64,000 bases of DNA from Amphirosellinia nigrospora (Eukaryota; Ascomycota; Sordariomycetes; Xylariales; Xylariaceae), in contig SCHM01000001.1 in NCBI GenBank assembly GCA_004123355.1, positions 1,976,001-2,040,000 on the forward strand, written 5' to 3'. A program made the position numbers and the translations under genes. The notes beneath the pieces are model-generated. The model saw nothing but the letters and a program-made list of their open reading frames with translations. It was not told the origin of the DNA and made no database searches. Each line of letters begins with the position of its first letter. Position 1 is the stretch's first letter. Positions 1,311-62,784 of the stretch are shown here, piece by piece.

Positions 1311-2538
1311 ATGCCTGGAAGACGATATTGTCGTTTTCCGGCGTTTCCCGAGCGTCTTAAGGGCCTTCCTGCCCCGGTCCTATCTATCATATTACTCCTA
1401 CTGCTTGTCAACGCCGTGGTCTGGGCTGCAGTAGCTGTTGTATTACACTTCCATCCAAGCTTAGTCGGCTCTGCTGTGCTTTCATACACGCTGGGGCTAC
1501 GACATGCGCTAGATGCAGACCACATCGCCGCTATCGACCTGATGACGCGGCGGCTCATCGCATCAGGACAGCGGCCCGTAACCGTCGGCACGTTTTTCAG
1601 TCTCGGGCACTCTACCATCGTCATCATCACATGTATCGTAGTAGCAGCCACGGCCGGGGCGCTACGCGAGCGCTTCGGTAGCTTCCAGTATATAGGCGGC
1701 ATAATCGGGACAAGCGTGAGCGCAGCTGTTCTACTGATACTCTGCGTGGGGAATGGATGGGTGCTATATCGTCTCACCGGCAAGCTACGCGGGGTACTCC
1801 GAGAACCGGACCCGCACAGTTCCGGCGAGGTTGACGATGAGGTGGAGGCTAGGAACGATGACCAGGCCGCGCGGGACCTGCAACTTGACGGCCCCGGGTT
1901 TATGGCCAATGTGCTGCGCAAGTTCTTTAGAGTCATCGATCGACCGTGGAAGATGTATCCCCTCGGGGTCTTGTTCGGTCTTGGATTCGATACTAGCTCG
2001 GAAATTGCCGTTCTAGGCATCGCCAGCGTGCAGGGCGCTCAGGGGACCAGTCTTTGGATCATTCTCATCTTTCCTCTCTTGTTCACAGGTAAGCTATTTA
2101 AGAAACCAGCCGTGTCCTCATGGCTGCTTAAGCAACACGGGATGCTGATGAAGCTCTAGCTGGCATGTGTCTAGTAGACACGACGGACGGGGCGCTCATG
2201 ATGACCTTGTATACCTCGAAAGCATTTGCGAGAGACAAGGTGGCTATCCTGTACTACTCAATCGTGCTTACTGGGATCACCGTGATTGTGTCCGCATTCA
2301 TTGGTATCATTCAGATCTTGTCACTGGTGCAACACGTGGCGGAGCCCAAGGGAAGCTTCTGGATGGGCTCACCGTGATCGGCGACCACTTTGAGATTGTT
2401 GGCGCAAGCATAGTCGGCGTCTTCGTGTTGGCAGGTATAGGATCAGTAATTATATATCAACCCTGGAGGCGGAGGATGGAGAGGCGTAGGGCGCAGAGAG
2501 TCCCTTCAAATTCTCCTCCGGATGCATTTCATGACTAA
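1311..2538 (+). CDS. NiCoT-family nickel/cobalt transporter
   Basis: This is a membrane permease of the NiCoT (HoxN/NixA) family, which takes up Ni2+ or Co2+, for example for urease. The signature RHALDADHIAAIDLMTRRL carries the HX4DH metal motif at about residues 65-83. It is followed by FSLGHST and LGFDTSSEIAVLGI, both typical of the family, and by several hydrophobic spans. Exon 1 is 1311-2088. A 71 bp intron at 2089-2159 restores the family sequence LLFTAGMCLVDTTDGALM. Near 2361-2366 the frame must change by one base: the upstream frame stops at 2377, while the family C-terminus (VIGDHFEIVGASIVG and the basic tail) continues in another frame to 2538. The reading is consistent with one G lost from a G run. 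The start is the first ATG before the first hydrophobic span. The gene converges on the calpain gene. Confidence 0.85.
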
Positions 2539-2885
2539 ACGAAAATACGAGCCTTAAAGCTTCAATGTCACTAAGTGTCATAGCGCAAGGCGATATCGCA
2601 ATAAATCAGAGAAAACTTGGATAAAGGAAGCCATATCTTCAATTAATTGAGAAATGTAGTATTTGACATTCTTGTACCCCGATGTACAAAGTGAAAAAAA
2701 AGCCAAAAAAACACACGATCTACCACTCCGCCTATGCTATATATATATACCTATCCAACGCATCACTATACCCAACTAAGTACCCCCGGTCATAAATATT
2801 CTAAATGAGAAGCGTGGTATCGTAAATCAGACGCAGTTTAAAAGCATGTAGCGTGCTTTAACCAAAGAAGGAAAACGTAAGCTGT
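2539..2885. other. Convergent intergenic spacer
   Basis: This is the 3' region between the convergent permease and calpain genes. It is AT-rich, with a short A run near 2694-2710 and a TA-rich run near 2740. No coding signal is seen. Confidence 0.5.
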
Positions 2886-5800
2886 CTAATGTCTAGACTG
2901 TGGGCTGCATTCTGTCATTGAATCTGGGGTATTGATGGGTGTCGAATCGCTGGAGTCGGTGAAATCTGACTTGGCAGAGTCCATCTCATCTTCTTCATCA
3001 TCATCGTCATCATCTTCTGTGTCGGCAACATTGCCGTCGTCCACAGTATCTTTGTGTTGCGAACCCTCATCTTTCTTCTGGTCGTCGTCTGCTTTCTTGT
3101 TATCGACCACCATCTTCTGCTTGATTACAGCAGCACCGTCAACGATCTCAAACTCATCTGTGACCTTGTCTGACTTGGTGGTTGTTTCACGCTCACCACC
3201 GGCGTTCATTTGCGCATTGTCGATGTCGGCAGCACCTTTCTCGCCCATACCGTTTTCAGCGAGATCGCCACCTTCGATGACAACACGCAGGTCCAGGTCC
3301 TGGTCCTTAGAGTAGACTCGGAACCCGACAATGCAGATGGCGTTCCACGGGTCAGGAAGCCCAGACTCTCCGTCGCTCTCTACCGCCTCTGTGGTAGTAG
3401 TGGCTGCGGCTTGCGGGGTTGCCATTCTAGGCTTCTTCGACATGTCATCTGAGGAATAGAGCAGCTCCCAATCCTCAACAGGGCTATCGGATGAGTCGCA
3501 ATCTGACGAGTAAGTCGGTGGGGCTGGAGCCACGGGTTTCTCCTGCGTCACCTCAGGCTCAGGGGCTGGCTCAGAAGATGCGTCGCTAGTAGCGGGAGGC
3601 GTAGTGTCCTTGTCCTCCTTCTCATCGCTCTCTTTAGTAGAATCTGATTTCTCGCCTTCAGGTGTATCCGTCTGGCCGTCAGTTTTATCAGATTGTGTGG
3701 AAGAGTCAGGCTCGCCGGAGCCAGTTTGATTACCCTTGTCCTCGCCTCGCACTGGTGCATCTGTTTGGACGGCCGCATCCTTGGGCTCTCTTCTTCTTTC
3801 TTCTTGAGTTCAGCCTCAGCCTCCTCTTCCTTCTTCTTGCGCTCAATCTCGGCCTCTTCTTCTTTCTTTTTCTTCTCGGCCGCCTCGGCCTCTTCCTTGG
3901 CTTTTCGCTTTGCGTCTTCGGCCTCTCGCCGTCTGTCGCGCTTCTCCTGATTCTTCTTCGATTGTTTCTTAGTAATCTCTCGGTTGAGGTGCCGCCTCTC
4001 CCACATCTTTCGGCGCTCATCCATTCGAGATGTGCTGGCTTTCTTCTGGTCCGACTTTTTGCAGAGGCTGGCGACGTGTTCCAAATGGGCAACACCCTTG
4101 CTATGTGCCAAATCGTAGGCATAGCCAACTTGAGCGAACTTGTCGTTCTCCTCCCTCTTGCGGCATTCGCGCTTGACAATATCCTCAATGGACTGCATCT
4201 CGGTATCCCGTTCAGCGACAATACTAAGGAATACTGAATAGTTACCAGGCTCCATTGAGGGAATCTCGATCGAAACTGATCGATTCATCAAATAGTTGCC
4301 GTGAGACCTAACGATATAATCCTCGCTGCCTGGCCGGCCTTGCTCATGTATACGGAAATGTAGTCGGAAAGAGTATTGTCCGCGAAGGCCCTTATAATAG
4401 CGGTTGTCGAGCTGCTGTAGGACCAGAATGAGAGGAGACTCCTTGGTCAGCTTGATGTGAAACTTCTCATTCCACTGTGGCTTCCAAGGGACCTCCACGC
4501 CAATCCAGCGTTGAGAGCATTGCCAGTCTGGGTCACGGAAGAGACGCGTTCTGTCAAAATGCTGGTACTTTTCTACCATGTCTTCAAACCTGATCCAGAA
4601 GACCGAATCGTTGCCAAACTGGTGGCCGAGTTCTTCCTTGACGTCCTGGTTCCACTCTTTCGAACCATCGGACCACGGTCCCTCCCAGACTCCTTTTCTG
4701 AGCTTTCCCCAAGGATTCCTATATTTGTTAGCACAAAGTATCATACCCGAACGCTTCATTATCTTACCGGAGCTTCACTAGCCGCTCGCCATTTTTAAGT
4801 GTTCGAGCATCCATTACAACATATGCATGTCCTTCGCGAATGCCATTCCGGTCGCCGTAACCACCATCTAAGAGGCCAGTAGAACAGCCGAAGAGGAATT
4901 CTTGATTGACCTTGCTCACTTCGTTCTCCCAGAATTCGTCCAGGTCTAAAATATCCGAGGCTAAAAGCTCAGTGGTCACACCACCAGTGAGATCTTCTAG
5001 TCCCTCTCCAATCCAGCCGCCGGCCAGCGAACCGAAATCACCATGGGCTTTGGCGTACGCCTTTTCAAATAGGGCGACCCATGTTTCATTTTGGTTCTTA
5101 CACTGCCCAAAGAACAGTGCCTTGGACCCGGTCTGGTAGGTTTTACGGTATTCCTTCTCGGGACTTTCGCGATCAATCTGGTTCATGAGGTCGCGCTGCA
5201 TACTAGGCGAGTCCCAATTTGGGGAGGTTAGATAGAGTTTATCATCGACAATGGAGTAAATCCATTCTCCGTCTCGGTAAAAGACGAAGCCATAGATGCC
5301 GACGCCTATGCCCATTAGTTAGTTTTGACTGTCAGGCCTTGTTCCAATTCAACAACAGCCCACTTACGAGTATCATACTCGACGCACACGCGCTTGACTG
5401 CGCCCTCGACATTTGCCAACGCACTGAGACTGGCAATGTACCAGCAATCGCCGAGGCCGCCTTGCTTTATATCTGCCCCGTCAATGTCTTTAAGAAACGT
5501 CGGCTTCTCGAAGATCTCATGGACACGCTTTACCGCTTTAGGGACGGAGGTAGTTGTGCTATAGCGGGTGGAGGTCATGTCGAATTTACAAGAGCCGAGA
5601 TAATTAAGGCAATTGCCCCTGCCCATTTTCAAGTCCCAGTCCTACAGATTATTGTTAGCATGCATTGGGTGCTACGCGATACCGGGAGGGACAGGGTAAG
5701 GAACCTACCAGATCGAACCCAGGATCTCTATATCGTGTATTGACTCGTCTACACTCTTGGATGATCTTTTTCACTCTGCGCGAACACTCCTCCCTTGCGC

Positions 5801-7860: not shown

Positions 7861-7912
7861 CTGCCTGCCTACCTACCTACTACCTACCTACCTGTCTGCT
7901 TGCCCACTACGG
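7861..7912. repeat. ACCT/CTAC microsatellite
   Basis: A short, imperfect tandem of CCTACCTACCTAC units occupies these bases. The same ACCT/AGGT motif recurs in short form near 7588, 21560 and 25745. It looks like a simple repeat scattered through non-coding DNA. Confidence 0.7.
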
Positions 7913-15724: not shown

Positions 15725-15751
15725 AAGAGAGAGGGAGAGAGAGAGAGAGAG
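15725..15751. repeat. GA microsatellite in leader of zinc-cluster gene
   Basis: A GA-dinucleotide tract sits about 240 bases upstream of the start of the zinc-cluster regulator. Purine tracts of this kind are common in fungal promoters and leaders; no specific function is implied. Confidence 0.7.
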
Positions 15752-15983
15752 GCTCTAACACCAGGTACCCCCTGCGTGGGTATTCTTCAGCCCAAAGCTG
15801 GATTTCCATTTTGTGACCCTTCGTGCGTCCTTTCCCGTCTTCCCAATCAAACTAACTTCCATCCAACATCTGTCCCCTCGCTACCCGAGATCTTTTAAGA
15901 TCGTGTCCCCATATACCGGGCTGTCGGGTCAAACGCATCCCGCCGCCAGATCGGATTGAACCTTAATTTACACTCGCTGGATC

Positions 15984-18272
15984 ATGGATTCGTACTTGCA
16001 GAATATGTCGGACCAGTCCTCGCATTCATCTTCTCCGGAGATGTATGCGCCCGGCCTTCCTCAGGCGGCGCCGACCGTATCACCACCCGGGAATGGCGAG
16101 TCACGGGTCCTACTCAAACCGTGCCGGCAGCGTGTCTCGCTTGTGTAAGTTGAAACTCTTTTTTTCTTTGGCTCATGGGAGGGAGAAAAATTATTTTATT
16201 TTTGTTTTATTTATTAATTTAGTTCGTTGGTGCGCTGACGCTGCGTCTTCGCCACTTAAGAGAGCCAAGCATCTAAAATGCGACGGCTCCAATCCATGCT
16301 CACGCTGCTTGACCTCGAGTCAAGAATGTGTCTACGTAGCGTCTCGTCGCGGCTACAAGGGACCGAGGAAGAGCTCTACTGCCAACCCAAATAAACGACA
16401 TGCTTCAGACTCGCCGCCTTTGCCCGGGAGTGACAACTGCCCCATGTTGTTGGGTGCGCAGGTCGGCGCTACACCTCTACCGCCCACGTTGGCGACGTTT
16501 AATCCGACTAGGAGCATGCCGGATACTCCCATATCGCCCTTCGTAACAACGCCCGTAGCCAACACCCTTCAAATATTTCGCAATCCGTACCTCAGCAGTA
16601 ATAATGGCCCTATGGTCACTATCAACAACCAGATGCCACAGAGATCTATCCCGGAGCAATGTATTGACTCCTTCTATTATTACTTCTATCCCGGCCACCC
16701 ATCCGTTCTCCCAAGACGCACATCGTGAAGCTGGCGGAAGAAAGGAACCTCGAACATCTCCTAGCCGCCATGAGATGGGTGGGGTCTCTGTATATCGAGG
16801 TCGGCCCAGCTCGCGCTACCTTCTTCGAAGAGATGATGCGACTCCTGTACGCCCCAGAGACGCCCAGGGACGGGTTCCTGGTACAAGCGCTGATCATTGC
16901 CATCGTCGGCGTCGACGGCTGCCGTAATAATGATAAGGCGAAGGATTTGCTCTCGGAGGCCGAGCAGGTTGCCATCGAGATCGGGATGTATAACCAGCCG
17001 TATGCCGTCACGTACGGTTGTGGGAATCCGCGACTGGAGGAAAGCTGGCGCCGGACGTGGTGGGACTTGTTCGTCGTCGACGGCATGATCGCCGGCGTGC
17101 ACAGGGCGACCAACTTCCCGCTGTACGACTTCACGGCGACTGTGGGATTACCTTGCGAGGAACACGAGTATCTCTCGGGGGTAAGTTGTCAACAAATTCT
17201 ACCTTTTCACGAACACATACACACGGCCCCCCCTTAAAAGAAAAAAAAAAGGTCAGCTCTGCCGACGAGCAAAACATTAGCTAATTCCGTTCAACAGAAA
17301 ATTCCCCGTCCAATGTACCTAGAAGACTTCGACGACCAACTCTTCTCGGGCGAGGACCGCGAGTTCTCGTCGTTTGCGTACCGCGTGGCATCGATTCGCA
17401 ACCTGGGGCGCATGATGCGTCTGCCGAGCAGCGGGTTCTCGCCCGAGGAGAGCGTAGACAAGATCGAGTCGTGTCTATCGAACTGGCGGCTGCACCTCCC
17501 CAAGTCGAAGCGGAGCTGTCTGAACAAAGAGGGCCAGCTCGACGAGATGATGTTCCAAGCATTCATGATCAACCACGCGTAAGTCTGACATCACCTCGTC
17601 CTTCCATTCCCTCTCTCTCTCTCAAAAAAAAGAAAGAATCCTTTTTTTTTTTTTTGGTGCTTCTCTGTCATCTGTTTCCGTGAGTAAGCAAGTAAGTAAA
17701 TAAACCACCAACTAACAAACGCCCTCCAAAAGCTGCACCATCATCCTGCACCAACCGCTCTCCCAGCTCGACTCGTCGCCGACGCGCGACGTGAACGCCT
17801 GCGCGCCGCACCGGTCCGTCGACAGCGGGGACAACTACAACCTGCACACGCGGCACATCATCACGGCGGCGTCGGCCATTAGCAAGATGGTGACGTACAA
17901 CGTGCCGATCGCGCGTCGCACACGCACTTCTTCACGTGCGTGCTGACGCTGTCCTCGATCGTGCACCTGAGCAAGTGGGCGGCCGTGTACTGGATCGAGG
18001 ACGAGGAGGACCTGCGGTCGCAGATCCGGCTCAACATCGGCGCCCTGAACACGCTGAGCGGCGTCTGGCGCGCCGCCGCCACCGCCGGCGCCCAGGTCAA
18101 GGGCGTCGCCCAGGAGATCTACCGCTCGCGAAAGGCGCAGCAGAACAGCCCCCAGTTCTGGGCCGAGTATACCGAGCAGGAGCGCATGCGCAGCATCGCC
18201 GCCGACAACGGCATCATGTCCGAGATCAGCCTCCTCCCCTCGGCGCCCGAGGCCGTCATGCCGCCTCCCTGA
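15984..18272 (+). CDS. Zn(II)2Cys6 fungal transcription factor
   Basis: This is a zinc binuclear cluster regulator. CLAC, RAKHLKC, DGSNPC, SRC and LTSSQEC give the exact C-x2-C-x6-C-x5-C-x2-C-x6-C pattern. The cluster is split by intron 16145-16260, directly after CLAC. Other introns are 17181-17297 and 17579-17732. The middle part (LEESWRRTWWDLFVVDGMIAG) is typical of the fungal-specific regulator domain that follows such clusters. Three one-base frame changes are needed: near 16125 between the start MDSYLQNMSDQ and the cluster, near 16712 (HPSVLP to THIVKLAEER) and near 17911 (VTYNVPIA to HTHFFTCVLTL). Each reads as one lost base, the first two in C runs. The protein is about 620 residues. 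Targets are unknown and no neighbouring gene cluster suggests a pathway. The protein ends SAPEAVMPPP. Confidence 0.85.
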
Positions 18273-18981
18273 TGCCTGTCCGTCTACCCATCAGTGTGTG
18301 ATGGGGCAAAGAGAAAAGAAGAAAATGGAGTGAGGGATGGACGATACGATCATATACTCGGACTAACAATATCAATTAGCCATATGTTATACCCATGATC
18401 GTACCTCTACGAAGGAATAAATTTTCTATTTATTTAACCAAAAAAACAAGAACGAAGAAAGAGACGCGCGGTTCGATGTATCATCATCAAAAGAAGAGAG
18501 AAAAGCGATCGGATTACAAACAAGCTGGGCAGGTATTCTCGTTTCGTCTGGACGGCGTGCCCGACTTTTTTTTGTTAACTGGAGTCTTGTTCAAAGAAGG
18601 GGAGCGAGCGGCTATTTCTTTTTTTACACTTGCCAAGAAACAGACATCCATCCTCACATGCGATGGTTTACTCTAGGAAGGAAGAGAGAACGGGAAGTTC
18701 CGCGGTTGGAAGATCTATGCCGGTCAATTACTATATGCCACTTAATAATGTGCTTTGGATGGAATTCGTCTGGATAACGATCGATGTTATATACTACTAA
18801 TAACCAGAGCACTCACACTTTGTTACGAACCAGTCTCTTTTTATTATGCGCACTGACTATGAATGAAGTTCCTTCCGAATCTACGAGATGGGATTACGGA
18901 TGGTCAATGTGTTGATTCATTCCCGCTGCTTAACTCTCATAGGGTGTTGACTTAGAGCCTAGATTGACTGTCTGCCCCAGT
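18273..18981. other. Convergent 3' spacer
   Basis: This is non-coding DNA between the convergent regulator and superoxide dismutase genes. It contains several A-rich and T-rich runs. Nothing else was recognised. Confidence 0.5.
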
Positions 18982-21760: not shown

Positions 21761-23808
21761 ATGGATATCTTTCGGAACGCCTTCAACCTCTGGGCGCGTC
21801 GCGATCCGCAACCCGCTGTGAGCCCTGCCGATTGCGATTCCGATTCCGATATGCCGCAACGCGACGGCGTATCAACACCAACTCTAGCTAACCCGGATCC
21901 GAAGTTGAATCGTGTGTCAACCTCGTCTCCACTCTCATCCATCGATACCACCGCGTCATTTGCCACGCCAACCCCTACGTCCCCGAACAATATCCAGGAA
22001 GAGGTCACTGCTAGCACCGATGACGAAGACAATGGAGGAAGAAGAGATCAGCCTGAATTGGGTGCGCTGTCACAGTACTATGAGGCGCGGAGCTTGCCAG
22101 CCGAGCTAAAGGAGCACTGTCGCGTTTATCTAGAAGAAGCACTCCGTATGTCGCTCGCCTCGCTTTCCGGCATCGTCATACCCCGCTCCCGCATCGCTAC
22201 CACTTACACCGGTGTTACTCACACGTTTTACAGCGCGACAAGCCATCTTTCTACTCGATAGCCTCCTGTCGACCAGGTCGTCAAACACCCGCGAGCCCGC
22301 ATACTGCCCTCCTCCCAGCCAGATCTCCCTCCTCTGCTCCATCATCGTCCACCCAGACTTCACCACTAGGCCCAAGGAACCCGACTGGCCCGAGATTAGC
22401 CTCCAATCTCTTGTGTACCTTCGAGACCTGCTTGCCGTCTGCGGCCCCGTCAACGCTGGCTTTAAAGAGTCTGTTCTTTTCGGCATAAATGCGACATCCG
22501 AGCTCGACCTGGACTCCTACACCGTGCTCGACGGTGGTTTAGATGCCGATGTGCGGGGTCTAGTGCGCTTATCCCCCGACACGGGAGCGACACCATTTGG
22601 CAGCGCGGCCGCGACTTTTTTAGCGTGGTGGGATGGGCCTTCAACTGCAGCTTCTTATACCCTGAGCGATGGCAATGGTGGAGTCGATGGCTGAACTTTA
22701 TGCTAGATCTACTTGAGAAAGATCTTGATGAACGATATATGCTGGACACAGAAAATGCGTTTGATGAGATGCCCATGTTGCAGGGCTCTATTCTTGCCTC
22801 TTATATCGCCCAACGATCTGGTCGCACAGCTGATGCGGTGATGTGGATTATGAAGGCGCTATTTGCTGACGGTAACACACCCTCGACTTCGGTGTTCCAG
22901 GAGGTGTGGCATCGGGAACACAAGAGCAAGTCGCATCGCGCCTTGAATAAACGAAAACGAGAAAAGGTGAATATAGACAAAGGCGAATATGGAGGATATC
23001 TCGACGATGAGTCGGTTATCTCTTCACAGGCTTCGGAGCCCCCTACACCACAGAAGAATAGGATCAAGTTGGCTGAGGTCGAGGAGGAGATTCTCGAGAC
23101 GGCATATGTCGAGACGATACCGTTGCGACAACGGTTGTTCTCTCTAGTGAGTTTTAGGAAGCCATCGTGCGTTGATAGAGACGTAAACTTATACTACAGT
23201 ACAAGGTCTCCTACTTATGCTACCGTCTGGACGACGCGTCCCCGATCGATTTCTCGAACCTGTATCAGAAGTTCGAGCAACGGATCAAGGAGCTCCCGCT
23301 CCCCGTCTTCTCATCCTTCATCAACAGTTCCACCTCAGCGTTGCGGGTCGACCAACAGATCGAGATGTTACAGGGCGTGCTCTTCCTCTTCACGCCGCCC
23401 GGTGCGCTCAGTCCGCGCAAGGTCGATCGGGATCGATTCGAAGATGGCGGCATATCTCCTGCGATTCTTGAGCGGTGCTTCCTGCCCTACCCGGCGAATA
23501 CCATCGAGGTCGAGGACAACGCCAAGATGTCCCTCCTGCTCGAGAATCTGCTGATGATTGTTTGGCGATACGGGGAGGACGATGGCGGATTTAGTGAACA
23601 GCTTGGTGAGGTTGTGAGGAAGGGCATTGAGGCTCGACGGGAGAAGATTAATAGGAAGAAGGCCCGAGGCCGTGGCAAGGGGGTCAGCGATGCCGAGATC
23701 GAGGCGAGGCTTGTGCTCGAGGCGTCGGATATGAGACTCGGCTGGTTGGCGGATGCCATTGCGGAAGATATCGAAGGCGATGCGATGGATGAAGATGAGG
23801 GCTCGTGA
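21761..23808 (+). CDS. Unknown fungal protein, about 635 aa
   Basis: I cannot name the family. The start is ATG 21761 (MDIFRNAFNLWARRD). Introns are 22146-22233 and 23147-23199, both canonical and in phase. The N-terminal 100 residues are Ser/Thr/Pro/Asp-rich and look disordered. The rest looks folded, with aromatic-rich stretches such as FLYPERWQWWSRWLNFMLDLL and a late segment VDQQIEMLQGVLFLFTPP. A basic linker (KRKREKVN, with KSKSHRALNKRK before it) may be a nuclear localisation signal. The C-terminus is helical and charged and ends EDIEGDAMDEDEGS. One frame change is needed inside a run of six T at 22616-22621, where seven T would join ATFFSV to VGWAFNCSF. The composition suggests a nuclear, structural or DNA-linked role, but that is only a guess. 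Confidence 0.7.
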
Positions 23809-38591: not shown

Positions 38592-39888
38592 ATGGCAGAC
38601 ATAAAGCCATACAAGATCGCGGTCAGCGAGTCACAGATTAAGGATCTGAAGCTGAGACTCTCTCTCGCTAGATTCCCCGATGAGCTCAACGGCGCAGAAT
38701 GGGACATGGGAGCGCCCCTCGCCGATGTCAAACGGTTGACGAAGCATTGGGAGCAGTCCTTTGACTGGAAGAAAGCCGAAAACGAGCTAAATGAATTACC
38801 CCACTTCGTGACTGATATCCAGTGCGAGGGCTTCAAACCGCTCGCCATTCACTTCATCCATATCCGCAGCAAGGTGAAGGGCGCTATCCCGCTGCTCTGG
38901 ATCCATGGGTGGCCGGGCCACTTCTGGGAAGGTGTCAAGCTGATGAAGCCACTCACCGAAGGTGGTGACGGCGTCCAGCAGCCTGCCTTTGATCTAGTTG
39001 TCCCCTCGCTGCCCAACTTTGGCTTCTCCGAGGGCCCACGGGACCGTGGTTTTGCATTGGCGCAGTATGCCGAGACATTGAACAAGTTGATGTTGAAACT
39101 AGGTTATAACGAATATGTAGCCCAAGGAGGTATTTTCCTCATTCCAGTTCCAACTTTCATACCATTTTACTAACCTCGAATCCAGGTGACTGGGGTACAC
39201 ATATTTGTCGTGCAATAGGCCATTTATTCCCAAAATACTGCAAGGCGACGCATTTGAACATGGATTCGGCGAATCCGCCCGAATTCTTCAAAAATCCGCT
39301 GCTGGCTATCCAGCACGCGATAACGCCATACACGAAGCGCGAGCGCGAGGGAAAGAAGCGGACAGATTGGTTCTTCGAGGAAGGTCGAGGATACAACATG
39401 GAGCAATCGACAAAGCCACAGACTCTTGGTTATGGACTCGCAGATAGCCCGTGGCCTGCCTATCGTGGATATACGAGAAGCTGCACGACTGGACAGACAA
39501 CTATCCGTGGACTGATGATGAGGTCTGTACCTGGGTCAGCATCTACTGGTTCTCAACGGCTGGGCCCGCGGCAAGCGCCCGCATCTACTACGAGCACACC
39601 CATAGCGCCAATCCCGACAAGCCGAATATCATGCGCCGGCCGGATATACGGCAATACTCGCCTGGTGTGAAGATCGGGTACAGCCACTTCCCGATGGACC
39701 TCACCGTCTTGCCGAGTACGTGGATACACACGCTGGGCGAGGTCGTCTTTGAGCGAGACCATGAAGATGGTGGGCATTTCGCGTCCTGGGAGCGACCGAA
39801 TGAGATTGTCCAGGACCTGAGAGATATGTTTGGAAAAGGCGGAGGTGCCTTTGGTTGCGTCAAGGGGGTGACAGGCTATTCGCAATGA
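38592..39888 (+). CDS. Epoxide hydrolase (alpha/beta-hydrolase fold)
   Basis: The enzyme opens epoxides to diols. The N-terminal cap region ([20 protein letters not shown], then [20 protein letters not shown]) is the EHN domain of microsomal-type epoxide hydrolases. The oxyanion motif is [14 protein letters not shown]. The nucleophile elbow is [14 protein letters not shown], with Asp as nucleophile. The C-terminal His lies in [12 protein letters not shown]. Exons are 38592-39129 and 39186-39888; the 56 bp intron falls in the nucleophile elbow codon. A one-base change near 39448, in a C run (LADSP to [14 protein letters not shown]), is needed to keep the fold. It ends in [12 protein letters not shown]. 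It converges with an oxidoreductase gene 250 bases away; the two may act on related compounds, but that is inference. Confidence 0.88.
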
Positions 39889-40138: not shown

Positions 40139-41364
40139 TCACAAAGGATGCTCAATGACATATTTCTCCATGCTATTCTTCCCCTCGAAGACATCATGAA
40201 TAGCTTGAACGCCTGCTTCCGCACCCTTCACAACGCTGATCTTCGGCATCCGAAATGAATTCCCCGAAGAAGCGAGCTGATGCAAAGCCCACGCTACAGT
40301 AGCCTCATTCCGACGCACAAACTCCGTTTCGGCAGAGTAGCGGCGGCCCAGACAGAAGGCCCAGCGTGGATCATGCGGCAGCGGAAGCGTGGCGCAAAAC
40401 TTGGTGTATCCGTCGGAGCCACAGCGGGCCGCGAGCGCAGGCGAGCTTTTCTCCCAGCCAATCTCTACACTTTCCCCCTTCGGCCCGCCAAACCCGGTCC
40501 CGGTCGCGACAGCGTCGAACACGACCGCGAACTTCCGCTCCGGCTCCGCGGCGATGGCGGCGCGGATCTCGTCGATAACCGTCGGCGAGCGGTAGTCGAA
40601 GCAGCGCGTAGCGCCCAGCGCAAGCAATGCTTCGTGGTTCTTCGGGGACGCCGTCGTATAAATAGGGCCGAAACCTGCCTTCGAGGCTACATAGATGGCG
40701 GCTAATCCGACTGCCGAGCTACCCCCCACTAGATATTATATCTTTAAGCGACCGGCTTACATCATACCTATAGATTGGATGGGGGCGCTAGCTGAAAAAC
40801 ATAGGGTTGAGAGAAAATGAGACTTACGATGAGAATCGCCTTTCCCTGAGGATCAGCGCCATCAATCACCCCCTTCGTCGGCGGGAATGAGAAACCGAGA
40901 CAGTTAAACAAAGCGTCAGAAGCAGTCATAAGAGCCGTCGGCCAAGCAACGAGGTTCCTCAGCCACTCTTCATTCCCTTTAACGCTATCTGGTACTTTAT
41001 AAGTCGCAGATCCGGGACCTGTCTCGGTTAGGAGTAAATCCTGGTGAGCACCCAGCTCGAGGGGGCGACGGTGACCTAGCTCCGCGAGTCCGAAGAGTGT
41101 GTCTCCAATAGAAAAGGCAGCATGCGGTCCTGTGGCTTCGACGACACCAAGCCACTCGTACCCGGCCACGTACGAGTGCGCGCCCATGTAGAAGTGGCGC
41201 CGGTCTGCTGGGTTCACAGCCGAGTACTGCACTCTTACGAGGACTTGCGTCTCGGTCGGCACATATGACGCGGTTTGCGCTAATAACTCCGGGATCCCTG
41301 TTGCTGGGATGAAGATGGCGGTGCGGGAGTTGGGTTTATTTAATCGGGGGATTGTGAAAGACAT
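40139..41364 (-). CDS. MDR oxidoreductase, enoyl-reductase/ToxD-like
   Basis: This is an NAD(P)H-dependent medium-chain dehydrogenase/reductase without structural zinc, close in style to ToxD and to trans-acting enoyl reductases such as LovC. The N-terminal GroES-like domain has VLVRVQYSAVNPADRR and AGYEWLGVVEATG. The Rossmann fold starts ILI-WGGSSAVGLAAIYVAS, followed by ALGATRCFDYRSP. Exon 1 is 41364-40828, the intron 40827-40729 (99 bp) and exon 2 starts at 40728. The splice lands on a run of six G, and seven would keep frame, so this is again one lost base. The C-terminus ends VFEGKNSMEKYVIEHPL. No polyketide synthase is in the window, so a link to secondary metabolism is not shown; detoxification is as likely. 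Confidence 0.85.
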
Positions 41365-46485: not shown

Positions 46486-49400
46486 ATGGATGCAGCTGGG
46501 TTGAGTATTAGTCTCGCGGGCATTGTCCTTAAACTCGTCATCTTCTCCCTCGACTTTGTCGGGGATGCGAAGCAAGTCTACAAACAAGGGGCGACAGACC
46601 GCAACGTTGATTTATCTACTGTTACGAAGAGTGTAGAAGATGCGACGACGACCTTGATAGAACAGCTCGATGCATTTGGCGATAACCAAGTGTTGAGCGC
46701 AGACGATGAAGTAGGTCATTTGACATCCTATGTTGTTCTGTTTTGCTGCGATAGTCGACGCGCCGACCCTTGCCGTGAACTTAAGAATAGACGAGAGACT
46801 CCGTGCTGACCTCGCAACAGCAGCTAAAAGAGCTGTCTCTGCGCACAGCTGAAATTGGACGAGAGCTTGCGCAGAGACTTGGGAGAGTTACTGCAGATGA
46901 TACGTCAAAATGGAAGAGTTTCAAGGCTGCAGCATTAAGCATGTGGGAGGCTGGCGAGATAGAAAAGACAGAAAAGCGCCTCAATGCCATTAAAGACCAG
47001 GTTCAGCTGCGAATCCTCGTGGGTATACGAGAGAAGGTAAATCTATCCCACGATACGGATAATTCTCGCATACTATCAACCCTCGAGGAGGTTGCGAAGC
47101 AACATGCCGGATCAAAAGAAGACACGAGACGCATGATTGAAAAGCTTAACGAAGCCGACAAGATTAGCCGATGGCATCATGATGAGCTTGTTGGACTAGG
47201 AAATCAAATTTTTAATAGCATCAATGCTATGCAAATCTCCAGATCGTCAGCTTTCGTCCCCATTCACCAAGCCTCGTCCGGAGCACATGACGATACCACC
47301 CGCAAGGAAGCTGAGAGATGCATACTCAATTCACTCTGGTACCCAAGTATATATCACCGCGTGGAAACAATTTCCGGGAGCTATAGCAATACCTTTCAAT
47401 GGATCTTCGAGAGTCCAGAGACAACGGGAAAACCTTGGGATAGTTTTGTGGACTTTCTCACAGGAAATATGTCGACCTATTGGATTACCGGTAAACCAGG
47501 CTGTGGCAAAAGCACTTTGATGAAATTCATTACAGACAACCCGAAAACTGAAGCACATCTCAAGCAATGGGCTGGGGAAAGAGAACTAATTAGAGCGTCT
47601 TTCTATTTTTACTATCATGGTCGGGAATACCAGAAGTCGGAAATTGGCATGATCCGATCTTTACTTTATTCTATCCTTCAGCAAAGGCGTGACCTGATTT
47701 CTTCTACCTTTAAGAATAGATATCAGGACGCTATTGAAGGAAGAAAGTTTGATGATCTACCCCTCCCGGAGGCACAGAGAGCACTCGTGGACCTGATAGC
47801 TCATAACCTGAATCTATGTCTCTTCATCTCAATCGATGGCCTCGATGAGTTCGACCCGGCAGTTTCTCGGACGCGCGTTCAAAATTTGATCGATTTTACA
47901 CATGCTCTTGAGAAGTTCAGCAATGTCAAAATACTTGTTTCGAGCCGCCCTTAGCGGAATTTGAACTTGGCTATGACGGACGGCCCTCTTTAAGTGTGCA
48001 CCACCTCACTCAAGAGGACATTCGCCGATACGCATATGAACGACTTATGAAGCATCCGAGAATGAATACCTTGGCTAAGAAGGAACAGACGAATATGAGC
48101 GATCTTTTGCATTCAATCGTGGAGTTGTCGCTTGGAGTCTTCCTTTGGGTTCGCCTAGTAACTGCGCTCCTCGAGGATGGACTCACGAACCATGAAAGCA
48201 TTGACGACTTGAAAAAGAGGGTGAATGATCTCCCACCTGATCTTGAAGATTTGTATAGAACGATGCTAGGTAGGATTGATCACAGGTATAGGTCTCAATC
48301 CGCTCGACTGCTTTCTTTCGTGCGCTATATACACAGCCACAAGAACGAGCTGACTCTGTTGGACTTGTGGTATGCTGAGAACGCTGATGACAACATGGTC
48401 TGCAACACTCCAGTCGAGCCTATAGAGGAGGAGAAAGTGAGAGACCGCTCACAACAACTTGAGACTCTCCTCAAATATCGATGCATGGGACTGATTGAGA
48501 CAGCAAAACCTTCCACAGTTCCCATCGGAAGTACGACATTTGGGTTAAGAGAAAATTCCGAGTTTGATGCAACAGCAAGATTCCTTCACAGGTCGGTCTA
48601 CGAGTTTTTCGGTCGTCGCGGCGTATGGAATGAATTCGTGCAAAAGTACTTAAGTCCTACGTTTAGTGTTGGCTTATGTTTATTCCGAAGCGCGATCCTA
48701 CTAATCAAAGGCTATCGACTACTTCCAAAGGACAGCCAGACTTACGAGACAATCGCGTACAATGTTGGGCCAGTGGGCGATCGCGCCAGGTTAGCGGAGT
48801 TAGAGACGAAACAATCCATGCCCATCCTATTTCTGAGCTAGATCTAGCCATGCGTGGTGTTATGCCTTTAGTATACCTATCTCATCAAGCCGAGCTTGCC
48901 AACTACCCTGATATTATGGTACGTATAAACTCTATTATTGTGCGAAGATGGGCCAGCCCCTGGCTGATCATCACACTGATAAACAAGTAAAAGCCAGGAA
49001 AAGCTATGATCCCAAACCCTACGCGTCATTGGTCAGTCGAATGCCGAAATTTACGGATTATGAGGAGGCACTCATTTTGGCCATTACAAGATAGCGATCA
49101 TGGTTCCCTGATGACATTTGCTGTTGAAAGCGGCCTCACGTTCTACATCCAAAAAGAGTTAAACAGGGAAGGCCGCAAAGTCTGGGCTAAATCGGGACTT
49201 CCTCTCTTAGGATATGCTCTGATGGTACCCTTCCACGCGGAAAAGGTTGGGACCGTCAAGTTCCTTCTCGATGAAGGGCACGACCCTAACGAAATATATA
49301 ATGGCATGACCTTATGGGAATGGTTCTTGTGGATAGAAATGGATAGGCCAACAATTTTGGACGCCATTCCAACTATAGAAGCCGCACTATTGGCAGGCGC

Positions 49401-49815
49401 AAATCCTAATGGAAAAGTCTTATGGGGCAGGTCTAAACTCCACAGCGCAGAACGCATAAAATCTAGAGGATTGTCCTGGTATCCACCTAGCTTTGATGAT
49501 AACTCAACAAGTATTGGCACAATACTTACCGCACTGATCCGAACCCATCAGTCGCTCAAGGACGATTTCCGCCATGCGTATGATTACGACGCAGGATCGA
49601 TCGACCAAAATGATGAAACGATACAGAGAGTAATTAAGTATCTTGAAGAGCACGGTGCTGTTGAAAAAGAATGGAAAGATTCCGAGTCGATGAGGGGTAT
49701 TCTTTTTGGGATTTGTGGAAGGATTGATAAGGCTGTCAATGCTGCGTCAGAGCTTGAAATGAGCTGGTATAAAAGACTAGTACGAAGATTAAAACGTAAT
49801 ATAACACCACGATAG
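46486..49815 (+). CDS. NACHT-type STAND protein (fungal NLR-like)
   Basis: This is a signal-transducing NTPase of the NOD-like type; fungal members control programmed cell death and non-self recognition. Exon 1 (46486-46710) encodes MDAAGLSISLAGIVLKLVIF and KSVEDATTTLIEQL, resembling the N-terminal domain of many fungal NACHT proteins. The intron is 46711-46820 (110 bp). The NACHT core has Walker A GKPGCGKSTLMKFI (about residue 297), Walker B LFISIDGLDEF and VKILVSSRP. A helical region with LHRSVYEFF follows. The C-terminal part has FLLDEGHDPNEIYNG and ALLAGANPNG, which look like degenerate ankyrin repeats. An intron near 48930-48997 has an uncertain exact edge. Frame changes near 47951, 48822 and 49092 each read as one lost base. 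The protein is about 1060 residues and ends KRLVRRLKRNITPR. Confidence 0.8.
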
Positions 49816-50232
49816 AAGGAGGAGGCACGAGGCCGCATATAGTGGGAATGCAAACATTTAGATAGTACCTGTTAAACTGAATCGATCGAACGGCGCAACT
49901 TTTAGCTCTGGAAATAATATGTAGGCGGATCCGTATCTTTACTCTCTGCAGTTGGCTTCCAGTGGCGGAACTCTCTTACTTGCGTGACAGCAATGCCATC
50001 TCGAAACCTGTCTTAATGGGTTTTTAATCTCATAATCACAAAGGGAATAGTTTATCGCCCGTCCAACATCCGAAGAAACCAAAAGCCAATATACGGGTCC
50101 AACCTGCAGCTCCTGCCTTTTGAGTCACAAACTTGAAATGTGCACCAAAGTGATATTCCACAGCCGAACTAAAGAAACCCAGCCGATGTCCCTAATTTCC
50201 CATTCCTCCTCATTAGCCTGCCTAACCGCTAA
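49816..50232. other. Convergent 3' spacer
   Basis: This is short non-coding DNA between the NACHT gene and the PL7 gene. No feature is seen. Confidence 0.5.
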
Positions 50233-51117
50233 TTAATGCGTGATTTGCAACTGGAAGAAATGCAGATCAGCAGTCTCCGTAGTTGTCAGATCCTGATTGT
50301 AATTTCCTGCCTTGAAGAATGCCTTGGGCGTAGTGAAGTAAGTTCTCAAGGTAGTGAACGCGTTATTGTTGATCCTCGCTAACAGCTGGCCACCTTCAAA
50401 CCGAACCTCGTACGTAAACCGCGTGCCCACTGACACGGTTCCGAGGAGCTGCAGATCTTGACCAGCTCCGCCGGCCGCGGCCTTCGCAGTCCCGAACTGG
50501 ATCTTCCCGTCGCTGGAGTAGTACAGCTCCGCAAAGGGCTTATTGAACCCGCTGTCCGCTTGGAACACCTGCCCAATGCAGATGTTGTGCACGTTTGTGC
50601 CCACCAAATCGGCAAATAGTCTGTTTGTGCCTGTGTTGGGGCTCCATGTGGCTATCTCCCCGAGCTCGGTGCGGCACTGTAGCTCGCCAGAGTCAGTAAT
50701 TATCCTTTCAGCTAGACGGGAGTTAAGGAATTCTGCGCTCCAGAGACGTGCTTATCACCCTAGAAGGAAAATTTCGCCCCAGCAAGCTACTGAAATGGAA
50801 AGAAAGCGACCGCAGGGGTTACATACATGGTCGCTCTCGGCGAACTTGACGCAGCCCGTCTGAGAAGGACTGCCGGGCGCCTTCATTACGAGTGCGCCAT
50901 CGCCGCTCTCTGTGAAGAAGTAGTGATGTCCGGGATCTTGATACCCGCCGCAGCCCTCAAGCTGGGCTGGTTGGACGATTTGTGGCGAGCCGTTGCCGAT
51001 GGGGAGTTGGAGCTCCCACTTGCTGAGGTCGAAGTTACCGCCTGGCGCACAGGTGGGGTCGAGAGCCATAGCTAGGCCTGCAGAGGCGAGGAAGGCCAGG
51101 TTGTTGGTGAACTTCAT
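50233..51117 (-). CDS. PL7-family lyase, secreted, altered active site
   Basis: The family cleaves alginate or glucuronan by beta-elimination. The N-terminus MKFTNNLAFLASAGLAMA is a signal peptide. It is followed by CAPGGNFDLSKWELQLPIGN. Exon 1 (51117-50827), a 150 bp intron (50826-50677) and exon 2 (50676-50233) give 244 residues with an intact frame. The three active-site strands are visible: CRTELGE (family RTELRE), IGQVF (family QIH or QVH) and FFKAGNYNQ (family YFKAGxYxQ). The catalytic His of the second motif is therefore Phe, and Arg of the first motif is Gly. In known PL7 enzymes Gln, His, Arg and Tyr catalyse, so activity is doubtful. It could be a binding protein or have shifted specificity. 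The splice is well supported because it recreates the family HCRTEL. Confidence 0.85.
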
Positions 51118-52483: not shown

Positions 52484-54202
52484 TCATTCTCCTTTTGAAA
52501 TAACTTTCAACTCGGCGACGGGGAGTTGGAATGGTTGTGGTCCGTTCTCACGAACTTTAGTAAGTTCTTCGAATGCATGGGCAACCCGGAGTAGAACCGC
52601 ATCCGAGAATGCTTTAGTAATGAACGTGATGGAATATCTATGCGAATTAGTAAGGTCATCTGATGTGATGTTAAGGTTATATACTCACGGAATTCCTGCG
52701 GCAATTCTGACCAAGTGTGGCTCACACTCGTCAAGCTCGATAGGAATGTTCTCGGGTAGAAACCCAAAGGAACGGTGATCACAGGAAAACCCATCTTCGC
52801 AGCCAGGTCATTTCCTATACCCAAAGAGGATGGGACGACAAGAACATCAAGTTCGAACTTGTCCATCGCCCCAAGAATGCCTCCCTCGCCACCGAAGAAG
52901 CGTTCCTGCTCAACCATTGTTTGGTATTTATCACTCTCCACATCAATTCCTTCAACTTGGGTCCATAGAAATTTCCCAATATCTCGACTAGGGTACTCTT
53001 CCTCCTGATGAGTCTTTGTGAATTCGATAATGTCTTCCGCGGACCGAATGTTATTTGGATTTGTCGCAACTGTATCAAGATAACGCACAATATCTCGTTT
53101 AAACTCGGATGACCGTACAATACCTTTGACTTGTTGGTTCAGTTTCTTGAACTCATTAGCAGCAGAGAAATTGGCATTATCGATCACTTGTGCTCCGGCA
53201 GAGGCCAAAGTACGCAAAGCGGCTTCAAATGAAATCATAACAGCTGATGTCGAGCTGGCGGCGAAGCTGTTTCGAGGGACGCCGATCGTGATACCGGTCA
53301 AGTCAGTGCTAGCGCAGTATTCTGTGAAATTGGGGATCTCATGGAACGGAATGTTCCATGTCATCTCATCACGTTCGCTCCTCCCCGCCATATTGTTGAG
53401 CAAATAGGCGGCGTCTTTGACTGAGCGTGTCAGTGTGCCAATGACGTCTTGGCGTGTTGAGATGGGAATTGTGCCATCATTCGCGATGAGACCGCGACTG
53501 GGCTTGAATCCAACAACGTTGTTAAACTCCGCTGGTTCCAGGATGCTACCAAATGTCTTTGATAGTAATGAATTACTTAGCGGTGATTTTGAACAGGCTA
53601 AAATGGGGGACTACTTACCTCGGTGCCAATTGCGGCAGCGGATAACCCAAGAGACACGGCTACGGCCGAGCCGGAGCTGCTTCCCTCTGGAGTGGAGTTT
53701 GGATAATATGTTCCGAAGGTTTGGCCACCCCTGGGGCTCCAACCTGAACTTACTTTTAGACCTCTGAAATTAGCCCATTCAGAAAGATTGGCTTTTCCAA
53801 GGATCAAGGCGCCAGCTGTTCGCAATCTAGAAATCACCGAAGATTCAGTTGCTGGTTTCGCGCCCAGAAGGGCATATGACCCCGCCGAAGCATCCAACTT
53901 GTCCTGTGTGGCAATATTGTCTTTGACGAGAATGGGAACGCCATGTAAGGGACTTCGAGACATCGTTAGTGGTGTACGTATTTGGTAAAGTGATCGTACC
54001 CTCTGCTTCCGTTTCGGGCTCGCTCCTGGTCTAGTTCTGAGGCGACAGTCAAAGCATCGGGATTGAGCTGCAAGACGGCGTTGAATTCGGAGGCTTCCTC
54101 AATCCTAGAAATATACGCTCTGACGAGATCGACTGATGTAAAGTCACCGGCGTCGAGGTGTTTCGAAAGACGCTCGATTGTAACGCTAGAAAGTGACAGC
54201 AT
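52484..54202 (-). CDS. Amidase-signature family hydrolase
   Basis: The enzyme hydrolyses amides (or related bonds) with a Ser-cisSer-Lys triad. Lys lies in GVPILVKDNIAT, and the two Ser in TPEGSSSGSAVAVSLGLSAA and AIGTETFGSILEPAEFNNVV. Exons are 54202-54000, 53952-53619, 53556-52689 and 52637-52484; introns are 47, 62 and 51 bp. The protein has about 520 residues, a usual length. A one-base change near 52758 (PLGFYP to ENIPIELDECEPHLV) in a C run is needed to reach the family C-terminus, AGIPYSITFITKAFSDAVLL. The true stop is then at 52484 (PVAELKVISKGE), a little beyond the stop of the unshifted frame. No signal peptide is seen, so a cytosolic enzyme is likely. Substrates of such fungal amidases range from acetamide to amino-acid amides and are not predicted here. 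Confidence 0.88.
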
Positions 54203-58430: not shown

Positions 58431-58990
58431 TACTTGCACTCGGCTGGGTCTACAAGGTCACGGCGACACTTGATTTGAAAGAACCTTGGTCAACTAAAGC
58501 CCTACGCTCCGTAACATAGGTATAAATGCTTCCTATCTAAGGTGACGGATAATGCAAGCGGAATTCAGAATGCTTTTTGTTATTCAATTCCAGGTGCTTT
58601 TCACTCAGGGTTTTTTTTCTTTTTTTTTTTTTTTTTTTTTTTTTTTTGCGTTTCCGTACCGGATCACCTTTAGTTCACCTCGCTGCCCCTTTTAGGTAGT
58701 AGACCACTCATTCTACATCATGTCTAGCTTTATATACACAAGACCTTTTCGTGCGCAATCTTAATGATCGTAATGTCGTGCTCGAATATTCAGACAATCA
58801 TTCGCCCTTAACCCTAGCTACTTAACAGATGGTTATAAAAGCCAATCGGCAGAATGTATAGCTCACAATCATGCTAGTAACCGTCAGGTTTCCCTCTTGC
58901 AATCCCCTCATCACCCCCCTTTTCAGCTTCATACAGCCCATGCACGGGTACCACAATCTTTCTCGGTTGCCTCGGACACGCCTGAAGACT
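58431..58990. other. Convergent 3' spacer with a long T run
   Basis: This is non-coding DNA between the NB-ARC and tannase genes. It holds the T tract listed separately and nothing else that I can identify. Confidence 0.5.
58611..58647. repeat. Poly-T tract, about 37 bases
   Basis: These bases are T except for one C near 58619. Such tracts can be a retroposed poly(A) tail read from the other strand, but no element body was recognised. A plain simple repeat is the safer call. Confidence 0.8.
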
Positions 58991-60590
58991 CTAGACACAA
59001 ATGAAAGACGATGCCACCGTCGGATCTCCCCCTGCATAGTGTTGGACCTTAGGATACATACAAAGATCTCTTTCCACCTTGACACCAAGTCCGTTCAGCC
59101 CGAAGGCCCGCAGCGTGTCAGGAGCAATACCCTTCTCGACCCAATCAACAATATATTCCAACGTAGGCGGCGAAGACGGACCGCAATTGAAACAATGGCC
59201 AGCACCAGGAGCCACGAAAAAGCGATAGTAGTCCGACGCTTCCGGGTCGAGGCCCAAGACGCGGTCGTAGTAGTCGGTGCTGCCGTTGAAGGGAATAGCA
59301 GCGTCCACGGTGCCGTGCCAGTTGACCATCTTGCCACCCTTTTCTTGAATGCAGACAAGTCCGGGTCCGACGTCCCGATGACGGAGTCGTATTCATTGAT
59401 GGAAGCGTGCACGAGTTCGTCCCATTGCTGATGAGTGATCGATCTCATGTCAAAGGAGGGTCTTTCTTGACCCAGTATCGAGCCCACACGAGATCCGACT
59501 CGGCGTTGCAAGAGCCGTTTTCCTTGCATTGGACCTTGATCGCGCCGGTGATTGGCTGCGTCAAGTCGGTCCCTTTGGTGAACCCGTACCATTGGAACTC
59601 GCCAGTGGCACTTCGAGGTCCATCCCAGGCCTTTTGAATGATATCCGCAGCCGCGGAAGATACCGTAGCCTCGAAATCATCGCACTGGATCTTCTTGCCA
59701 ACGACATCGCGAGGGTCAAAGTCACATAGATCTACTCTAGAGATGATACCATCTTCTAAGCCGTCCAGCTTGTCGCAAGCTGAAATGACTGCTGCCGTAA
59801 TAGCATCAAACTCGCAGGGTCGGGGGTACGTACGCATCTGGTCCATGACGAACGTTGGCCAGAAGTTGGAGAAGAAAAACTTTTCCCAGTTCACGGCAGG
59901 AAACAGAGCGACAATGCCGTCATAGTCTTCCGGGTATCTTTGCGCAAGCATATGACCTTGCCTGCCACCGGTTGAACCACCGAAGAAGTACGAGTATGCT
60001 GGCGCGGTGCCGTAGAACGCTTCTTGGACTGCCTTGCCAATGGTGGCCGTGTCGTGCAGCGCAACAGAGGCGAAGTCGATGAGTAATGGCCAATTGACGT
60101 TTCCGGGACTAGTCAAAGCCCAAGAAGGCTCCTCGAGGGGATCTGAAGAGTGCCCACCGTCGCTAGTAGCAGTAGCAAACCCTTCAGCCATGATGGGCAT
60201 CATCAAGAACTCCGCAAGCAACCCTCCCCCAGTGGCAAAGACGCCCCCACCAATTCCCGCGAACCTGCCGTTCCAACTGTCCGTGGGAAGCAGGACATTG
60301 ACATTGATGGAATCGTGCCAGCCAGGATGCGTGTAGGTGACGGTCACATTGCAGAAATTGAGATCTGGGATCGTGCGGGGGTCCGGGAGGCCTGCGGCGT
60401 AGAGGCCAGGAACATAGGTGTAGTTGCGCTGCTCCGAGGCTTCAATCGAAAGTATGCTCACTCCTGTAATATCGGGAAGAAGTAACCCTCCCGGGCTGCA
60501 CCTGATAGCAGAATCCTGTGGCATTTGAAGAGGCCATTGGCTTGCCCAGCCTGCGGGGTTGCCATCGCCGCCAAGCATGTTCCAATTCAT
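58991..60590 (-). CDS. Tannase/feruloyl esterase family
   Basis: These are serine esterases that release gallic or ferulic acid from plant polyphenols. The catalytic Ser is in the nucleophile motif GGSTGGRQGHMLAQRYPEDY. The Asp is in NWHGTVDAAIPFNGSTDYYD and the His in PGAGHCFNCGPSS. The middle has WNGRFAGIGGGVFATGGGL and MAEGFATATSDGGHSSDP, both family hallmarks. Cys residues, CFNCG among them, suggest disulfides and secretion. The frame is open upstream to about 60659, and a signal peptide was not found; the first ATG in frame is 60590 (MNWNMLGG). An upstream exon with a GTGAGT donor near 60690 is possible. Two one-base changes, near 59461 and 59333, link the nucleophile part to the Asp/His part; both fit a lost base in a C or G run. 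Confidence 0.8.
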
Positions 60591-61642
60591 CGTGAAGGTA
60601 TCTCCACTCGTCAGATCTTTGACGAGTTCTAAGATTGATGTGACAACAGGGGCACGCAACCACGACGTCGATACGGTTCACTCACAACAGTTCCCGACAA
60701 TGAGGGCTCTCGTCAGGATACTACGAGGAAGGAAATATAGAACGTAGCGTGAGAGTTGGCCACTCTTAAACCTTGGCCCATTCATTGCCTCGCCCTCTCT
60801 ATTTAGCAGAATAAATCAATACCAAGCGCCACACTGCATCATGTTGCATCAATCTCGCTCTTACACCCTCCCGATCAAAAAGGCTATTCTCAACTCTAGG
60901 AATCGAATAATCGATGTAATATTATGCAGTTGGCGGGTTGTCCTCATCTTGCATCACCTGTGCTCATTTCTGATTCATAATGATTCACTGTGACTTGGCT
61001 GTGGATGCAACCTGCGACCTCATTTATCCCAGAGCTCCACTTGCGAGATTGTCAATCTGAGATAACATCCGCCAAACATACAGAAAATTTTCCGAGTGAT
61101 GTCTTTGCTTTTTCGTCCAACACTTCCATCTTAAGTGCTTCATGTATTTCCTCTTGAAGCTGCATCTCCTCAGCCTCATCCAGTCGCAAATTTCTTCTAT
61201 CCGGCATCTTTTCCGCCTCGCCAATCTAATCACGTTCGTCGCAGCCTTCACCGTTTCTCCATAAACAGCTTCGCGTATCCATATCATTCCAATCCCCCAA
61301 CTTTTTTTCAACCAATGATATGTCCAATCCTAGTACGGAGGGGTCTCAAAGGTTATAGCAAGACCTCGTCAAAGCTCTTGTAAATCACTTCAAATTCACT
61401 AATAATCAACTATGCTACCAAAAGCGCCATAAAGATCTCCTTTAAGTGAACAGAGCTCATGTCAACGTCAGATCCAGCACGAGGTTCACCGAGTTCATAA
61501 CCAGCCCAGCAAATCAGATCAACATACACACATAATTAACAAGACTTCCAGAACAACGACAGAGTTTCAAAAAAATAGTTTTCTAGATACTCTATAGTTA
61601 TTTATGTCTATGTACATATATTCTACGAACAATCAAGAATAA
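60591..61642. other. Intergenic, no gene seen
   Basis: This covers the tannase promoter or a missing 5' exon (60600-60750) and AT-rich DNA to 61.6 kb. ORFs near 61024-61383 on both strands look like chance. Confidence 0.45.
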
Positions 61643-62784
61643 TCAATCAAACATTCTCAATCTCGAAACATCAATGTCAATGTCCTCATCAACATCCTCG
61701 TCAATAGTAAGCAAAGAAAACTCACCCCGAGCCCGTCTTCGACCAGCGAAAGACGAACCGCGTGGTTTCCGCGGGGCCGGCCTCAGCGGAATGGGTCTAA
61801 CGACCTCCACGGGCGTAGGCGGTCTCCAGCCATCCAATCGCGGGATATCATCACCAACACCCAACCGGCAGAACGCCGTAACCGGACTCGCACTACGGCG
61901 ACCAGCGAGGGTAGGAGGGACCTCCCGGTCTGGAGAGACAGGATACGGCGGCTCGCCACGGAGCCTCGGCATCGGGGAGGCGAGGCGCTCGATGGGGGAC
62001 TGGGGGAGGGTTGGAAGAATGTGTATCTATGGTTAACAGCACAGGCATGGGTATGGGGTAGGGGTGGGGACACTTCCCTTGTCGAGCTCGTTCTCGTGCT
62101 GGCGCTGTATACGCCGGCGCCGGAACGGTTAGGAACCGCGAGCTTGGCGCGTTGTACGGCCGTGAGAAGTTTCGCGCTGGTGTCGAGCTTTCGCGAAACT
62201 CTTCCGGGCGTGTGTTTATCACCGTGTTCGCGGCAGGAGAAGACGATGGCGGCTGCTGCCGGGTCCCGGCAGCGAGAAACGGACTCGGCGAATCCGCCAC
62301 GGCGTCTGATGCCGCGTCAAATCCGTCATTCGTCATCGACGGAGCATTCACATGAAGCACATTTCCAAAATAATCCAGCGTAGGCTCTCCCTCAAGGGAG
62401 TCCGCCGGGACATACCCAGAGCAAGGTGAGGAGGTCACATTATTAGACAGCTCTGGAGTTGAATCCAGGTCATCGTAGTATCCGACCTCCGTCTCCGCGA
62501 CGGTAGCCTGCAAGACCTCGGCAATCGTGTTTGCGAACGCAGAGCGCGGTTTGGATCGTAATCTACAAGATTACCCACGGGATGGCTAGTACGGCGGTTG
62601 GAATACTCACCGGTGCCATTTCTGTAGTCAGGCTCGTCGTCGTCCGTCCCGTCGTCGTCCGTCCCGTCGTCGGGCATCTCGTACGTGTCATAGCGATACG
62701 CTGGCGAGCAAGATTTATAACCCAACTGTGAGTTGCATACAACGGCGGTCTCACCGACACAGTGGAGTTGTCAGATGAGGACAT
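61643..62784 (-). CDS. Low-complexity protein, unknown function
   Basis: I recognise no family. The frame starts MSSSDNSTVSVRPPLYATHS. It continues, after a one-base change near 62729, with YRYDTYEMPDDGTDDDGTDD, a short tandem of DDDGT units. A 48 bp intron (62610-62563, GTGAGT to TTGTAG) leads to YDPNRALRS. After another one-base change near 62535 it reads ANTIAEVLQATVAETEVGYY and a Ser/Pro-rich stretch. A further intron (about 62071-62007) leads to PMPRLRGEPPYPVSPDREVP, an Arg/Pro-rich region and an acidic end, TIDEDVDEDIDIDVSRLRMF. Most of it should be disordered. The consistent splice joins and composition support a gene. Its expression and role are unknown. Confidence 0.55.

Follow-up and report, generated by a model that had tools for sequence, protein, structure and literature searches.

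Does the repeated loss of reading frame along a stretch of Amphirosellinia nigrospora DNA reflect the biology of its genes, or mistakes in the sequence itself? The stretch analysed here, hereafter the window, is 64,000 nucleotides long (C1:1976001-2040000) and lies on a 13.8 Mb contig, one of four contigs longer than 8 Mb in an assembly of 11 contigs and 48,114,038 bases (48.1 Mb). An earlier note on this DNA had named 19 sites in 11 genes at which the sequence of a gene family continues in another frame after a missing base. We checked the window by Pfam searches of stop-to-stop open reading frames (ORFs) and by frame displays around these sites. A hidden Markov model was also run, with coding phases for each strand, splice-site profiles for introns and a set cost for every one-base frameshift. 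Listed sites without coordinates, in the genes with multiple sites, were paired with the results by gene. Pfam domains such as Zn_clus, HET and Fungal_trans were identified in the ORFs of the window, and short introns are present, both of which point to a filamentous fungus. The genes concerned are the following:

1311-2523, + strand: NiCoT (NicO) gene; one intron at about 2089-2177, break near 2361-2366
15967-18298, + strand: Zn2Cys6 transcription factor gene; two breaks, near 16668 and near 17918, and by eye one more upstream of 16145
21761-23808, + strand: unnamed long gene; T run 22616-22621 as a candidate break, by eye only
24269-24900, - strand: NDUFA12-family (complex I factor) gene; break near 24690-24710
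25817-27917, + strand: CH-domain gene; break near 26323-26331, called by the coding model at a cost of -9 and replaced by an intron at -14
28421-30375, - strand: HET-domain gene 1; two breaks inside the HET domain, at about 29500-29610
34340-36638, - strand: unlisted gene with ankyrin-like repeats by eye; break near 35327, called by the coding model at -9 and -14
38592-39888, + strand: epoxide hydrolase gene; break at about 39448-39451
40139-41364, - strand: zinc-type alcohol dehydrogenase gene; by eye, a candidate break in the G run 40722-40727, at a splice edge
46486-49987, + strand: NPHP3_N/NACHT gene; break near 47940, called by the model at -9 and replaced by an intron at -14
52507-54202, - strand: amidase gene; real intron at about 53557-53618, break near 52758
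58991-60578, - strand: tannase/feruloyl esterase gene; break near 59360, another at about 59440-59470 by eye

Several of these genes recover their family match once the frame is corrected. In a profile-extension test, the piece in the next frame was joined behind an X; the amidase and HET ORFs as given were the only wrong-frame controls. The NicO match grew from positions 3-250 to 3-285 of 287 (206.3 to 218.0 bits), and the NDUFA12 match from 24-66 to 5-65 of 98 (29.9 to 47.3 bits), the latter covering one of the two sites listed for this gene. The HET match was extended from 2-77 to 2-146 of 146 (77.2 to 101.5 bits; two of three listed sites) and the Amidase match from 151-376 to 151-445 of 445 (86.3 to 92.3 bits), whereas the sequences as given were limited to 1-78 and stopped at 376, respectively. 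When searched alone, the short pieces from the NiCoT, amidase and epoxide hydrolase genes did not match their own Pfam families. For the epoxide hydrolase, the piece at 39188-39454 ends and the next-frame piece at 39448-39885 begins at the same residue, 268, of the structure 1QO7. The two DNA pieces overlap and therefore leave no room for an intron.

At other sites the evidence comes from the coding model. It alone backs the breaks of the CH-domain gene (about 26323), the NACHT gene (about 47940) and the zinc-cluster gene (about 16668 and 17918). In the zinc-cluster gene, the Zn_clus and Fungal_trans matches lie in different frames, and the model calls both breaks at -9 and substitutes introns at -14. 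The CH profile is matched over positions 49-108 in the upstream frame with 25.9 bits, just below the cut-off of 26. In the NACHT gene, NPHP3_N reaches position 164 of 164 in one frame and DUF7791 is found in the next. The Tannase profile is matched over 1-273 in one frame and 357-490 in another, and the break at 59360 is called at both -9 and -14; a short piece from the middle of this gene gave no useful match to a solved structure. No break was called by the model in HET-domain gene 1.

That many of the listed genes lose their frame by one base within conserved sequence was thus borne out in substance, although not for every site. Eleven sites in nine genes are supported by at least one tool. 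Four rest on frame displays read by eye: the G run at 40722-40727, the T run at 22616-22621, the second tannase site and the upstream zinc-cluster site. The remaining four (the third HET 1 site, the second complex I site and the second and third NACHT sites) were not individually confirmed. Two of the sites read by eye also have an intron reading: ADH_N and ADH_zinc_N sit in two frames of the alcohol dehydrogenase gene, as they would if separated by an intron, and at 22616 the model favours an intron at 22551-22603 at all three costs shown. Five of the seven window calls at -9 fall in listed genes. An unlisted call near 3789 lies in a calpain gene (2886-5315) and adjoins a 33-base tandem repeat.

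We then looked at conserved genes across the assembly, using Pfam searches for chaperonins, HSP70, HSP90, actin, the RNA polymerase second subunit and class I tRNA synthetases. The gap in the DNA was compared with the gap in the profile at 56 junctions between neighbouring hits no more than 800 or 1000 bases apart. A tight break, with no room for an intron, was defined by a DNA excess or shortfall within 4 bases and a profile overlap or gap of at most 8 positions, a rule fixed after viewing the table. The 56 junctions comprised 21 tight breaks, 7 looser ones, 18 with an intron-sized excess and 10 that were unclear. The tight breaks are spread over six contigs (C1, C4, C5, C6, C7 and C8) and amount to 21 per 47.3 kb of hit length, or about 0.44 per kb. 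A single base seems to be lost roughly once per two kb of gene, essential genes included.

These junctions bear directly on the idea that each apparent frameshift is simply a short intron of the usual fungal kind. Introns are certainly common in this genome, as indicated by the 18 junctions with an intron-sized excess and by the calpain gene of the window, which is split by introns and whose pieces leave an excess of about 47 bases at either of two junctions. Moreover, the coding model at its stiffest cost (-20) turns all the window breaks into introns, and even at -9 it places introns at 22616 and at 39448. Nevertheless, at the 21 tight junctions the profile continues across two frames that overlap or almost touch, and the NicO, Amidase, NDUFA12 and HET matches lengthen as soon as the adjoining piece is added. 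The junctions without room rule out introns as the cause of every break, and we consider it very improbable that misread introns explain the pattern.

A second possibility is that the breaks are true mutations in genes that are decaying. Fungi can do without HET, NACHT and tannase genes, and decay of such genes does occur in them. However, the same kind of break is found on six contigs in genes for chaperonins, HSP70, HSP90, actin and RNA polymerase, and the segments on either side of a break retain their family match. Among the matches listed, we found ten chaperonin groups, of which nine are near full length, and five of these nine carry a tight break. A fungus is expected to possess nine such genes, i.e., eight CCT subunits and HSP60. 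Since nine were found and nine are expected, there is no sign of intact spare copies among the best-scored candidates. One RNA polymerase subunit gene, on C6, presents three tight and two loose breaks within about 1.1 kb; another, on C1, is matched by one single hit with one stop codon. Because conserved genes are broken, gene decay fails as a general account, and we regard it as highly unlikely. The breaks are spread regardless of the importance of the gene, as consensus indel error would have it. The class I tRNA synthetases presented no tight break and one loose break, a result that speaks against a uniform rate. Two of the nine chaperonin genes are matched in one unbroken hit.

The breaks also have a dominant direction. 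A single base is missing at 17 of the 21 tight breaks and two bases are missing at 2 more; the remaining 2 carry an added base, in both cases in the HSP90 gene. Across the 17 one-base losses, the DNA is shorter than the profile by exactly one base in 16 cases and by four in the other. One-base indels with such a bias are again what would be expected of consensus indel error. The earlier claim that nearly every break is one lost base, often within a run, therefore holds in that single losses dominate, but some double losses and extra bases occur as well.

The context of the breaks was examined at 17 of the tight breaks (those outside the families searched later), which were fetched as short stretches and whose frames were read by eye. 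Homopolymer runs of at least 4 bases were found at 6 of the 17 breaks, against 2.7 expected, and runs of at least 5 at 4 of the 17, against 0.7 expected; random placements, made within chaperonin loci only, reached these numbers in 3.3% and 0.4% of 2000 draws, respectively. This enrichment is consistent with consensus indel error. The other 11 well-placed breaks lie outside runs of at least 4, which counts against this explanation, and runs accordingly account for a minority of the sites. As a separate observation, a run of 28 T in the window (58611-58647) is retained, unlike what simple run-truncating errors would leave, while shorter runs elsewhere lose bases.

Losses of the same kind were also observed in a gene that is not translated. 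At least 33 matches to 5S rRNA are present in the assembly (47 of 2127 first candidates were scored), and we compared 31 copies after leaving out the two weakest of the 33. Nine copies share identical substitutions: four are full length and five differ by lost bases only. These losses total six, one or two per copy, and every one falls in one C5 or one G4 run. Losses of this kind fit consensus indel error, but differences in run length can also be natural variation among copies. No loss was seen in nine tRNA copies, which belong to two types; these copies are short and had been selected for equal score, which makes them uninformative.

The 5S rRNA copies are relevant to a third explanation, according to which the breaks are truly in the DNA and the frame is restored genome-wide by ribosomal frameshifting or by RNA editing of the insertion type. 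The organism lives despite its broken conserved genes, and, in the available part of the study, Euplotes ciliates are described as having abundant ribosomal frameshifting, with shifts of one or two bases at stop codons (PMC10235951). Our data resemble that system in that many genes are frame-broken. They differ in that the genes here are mostly one base short and a non-translated gene is affected, which ribosomal frameshifting cannot yield; as a general cause it is unlikely for that reason. No shared motif or stop codon was seen by eye at the 17 displayed sites, and some breaks run in the opposite direction, with extra bases. Moreover, a +2 shift would mimic one missing base but with two surplus bases in the DNA; at 16 of the 17 one-base breaks the DNA is instead short by one base. 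Seventeen of the 21 tight breaks lack a base, a pattern that does not correspond to a forward shift at an in-frame stop codon as in Euplotes. Overall, we judge this explanation to be exceedingly improbable.

To what extent is the window itself unusual? The earlier note had presented the dropout as a window-wide matter. The training data of the coding model were the window and 16 further loci, namely L002 to L018 except the AT-rich L009; L001 falls within the window and was omitted. At a cost of -9, it called 7 losses and no gain in the 24.9 kb of coding sequence of the window; the 60.9 kb from the other loci gave 14 losses and 3 gains. Lowering the cost to -7 yielded 9 losses and 1 gain in the window and 22 losses and 4 gains elsewhere; at -11 there were 6 losses and no gain against 7 losses and 3 gains. 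At -14, 3 losses were left in the window (59360 being the only listed site) and 1 gain elsewhere, and at -20 no break was called at all. Few or no breaks are called at these two costs because the model then favours introns. Simulated break-free coding sequence (58 kb) gave no false call at -9 and 2 at -7, in a null drawn from the same model and hence lenient. Planted losses were recovered in 33 of 72 cases at -9 and in 50 of 72 at -7. Once corrected for recovery, the break rate is about 0.6 per kb both in the window and elsewhere. The equal rate (7 breaks in 24.9 kb against 17 in 60.9 kb) rules out a cause specific to the window, and the scope of the dropout is instead the whole assembly. The density of ORFs of at least 250 amino acids is 0.22 per kb in the window and ranges from 0 to 0.5 per kb among the other loci, a comparison of little weight without an accurate fungal control.

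Taken together, the evidence makes us confident that the best explanation is a genome-wide residue of consensus indel errors, most of them the loss of one base, with about 0.4 to 0.6 errors in each kb of coding sequence. This explanation fits best because it accounts at once for how far the breaks extend, which direction dominates, why conserved genes are hit and why bases are lost in an RNA gene. The earlier note had likewise preferred consensus error to gene decay and stated that ordinary housekeeping genes are hit too; both views are supported here by the essential genes on six contigs, the one-base losses and the 5S rRNA copies. Each indel error would shift the apparent reading frame, such that genes of about 2 kb or more would usually appear split and genes of a few hundred bases would mostly escape, while the true genes would be intact in the organism. 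We infer the sequencing platform and the polishing history: the source would most likely be a long-read assembly that was not polished, or was under-polished, with accurate reads. The type of error and the contiguity of the assembly suggest that long reads are probably where the errors come from.

Comparable errors have been described in other assemblies. According to the accessible portion of the Kastor study, which concerns gene-fragmenting errors mostly in bacteria, deletion errors go with homopolymers two to eight bases long (PMC12007338). Our breaks resemble errors of this type in that frame-breaking indels are genome-wide, conserved genes appear broken and homopolymers are enriched; in contrast to them, most of our well-placed breaks lie outside runs of at least 4. 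For nanopore-only assemblies of the fungus Drechmeria coniospora, the available text of the report gives conserved genes as about 65% complete at first; about one-fifth of genes still contained errors once long reads had been used for polishing, and polishing with short reads raised the completeness of conserved genes to nearly 99% (PMC7500977). The same text describes polishing as having introduced more insertions than deletions (PMC7500977), unlike the losses that dominate here.

The broken genes of the window are therefore most likely sequencing mistakes rather than biology. Gene models, pseudogene counts and readings of "broken genes" from this assembly should not be trusted without accurate reads, and findings on the same genome that are based on split HET, NACHT or enzyme genes are to be discounted. 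The dropout pattern itself would have no biological content and would not be a real feature of the genome.

Some minor observations were made along the way. COX1, searched for as a mitochondrial comparison, had no match anywhere in the assembly, and a mitochondrial contig is seemingly absent. Two contigs are small (C2, 57 kb; C3, 18 kb). The AT-rich locus L009 (C5:2500001-2510000) has a G+C content of 8.4% and no ORF of at least 250 amino acids, and is possibly part of a centromere. Finally, the window carries a PL7 alginate lyase gene (50233-51117), a kind of gene that is not common in fungi.
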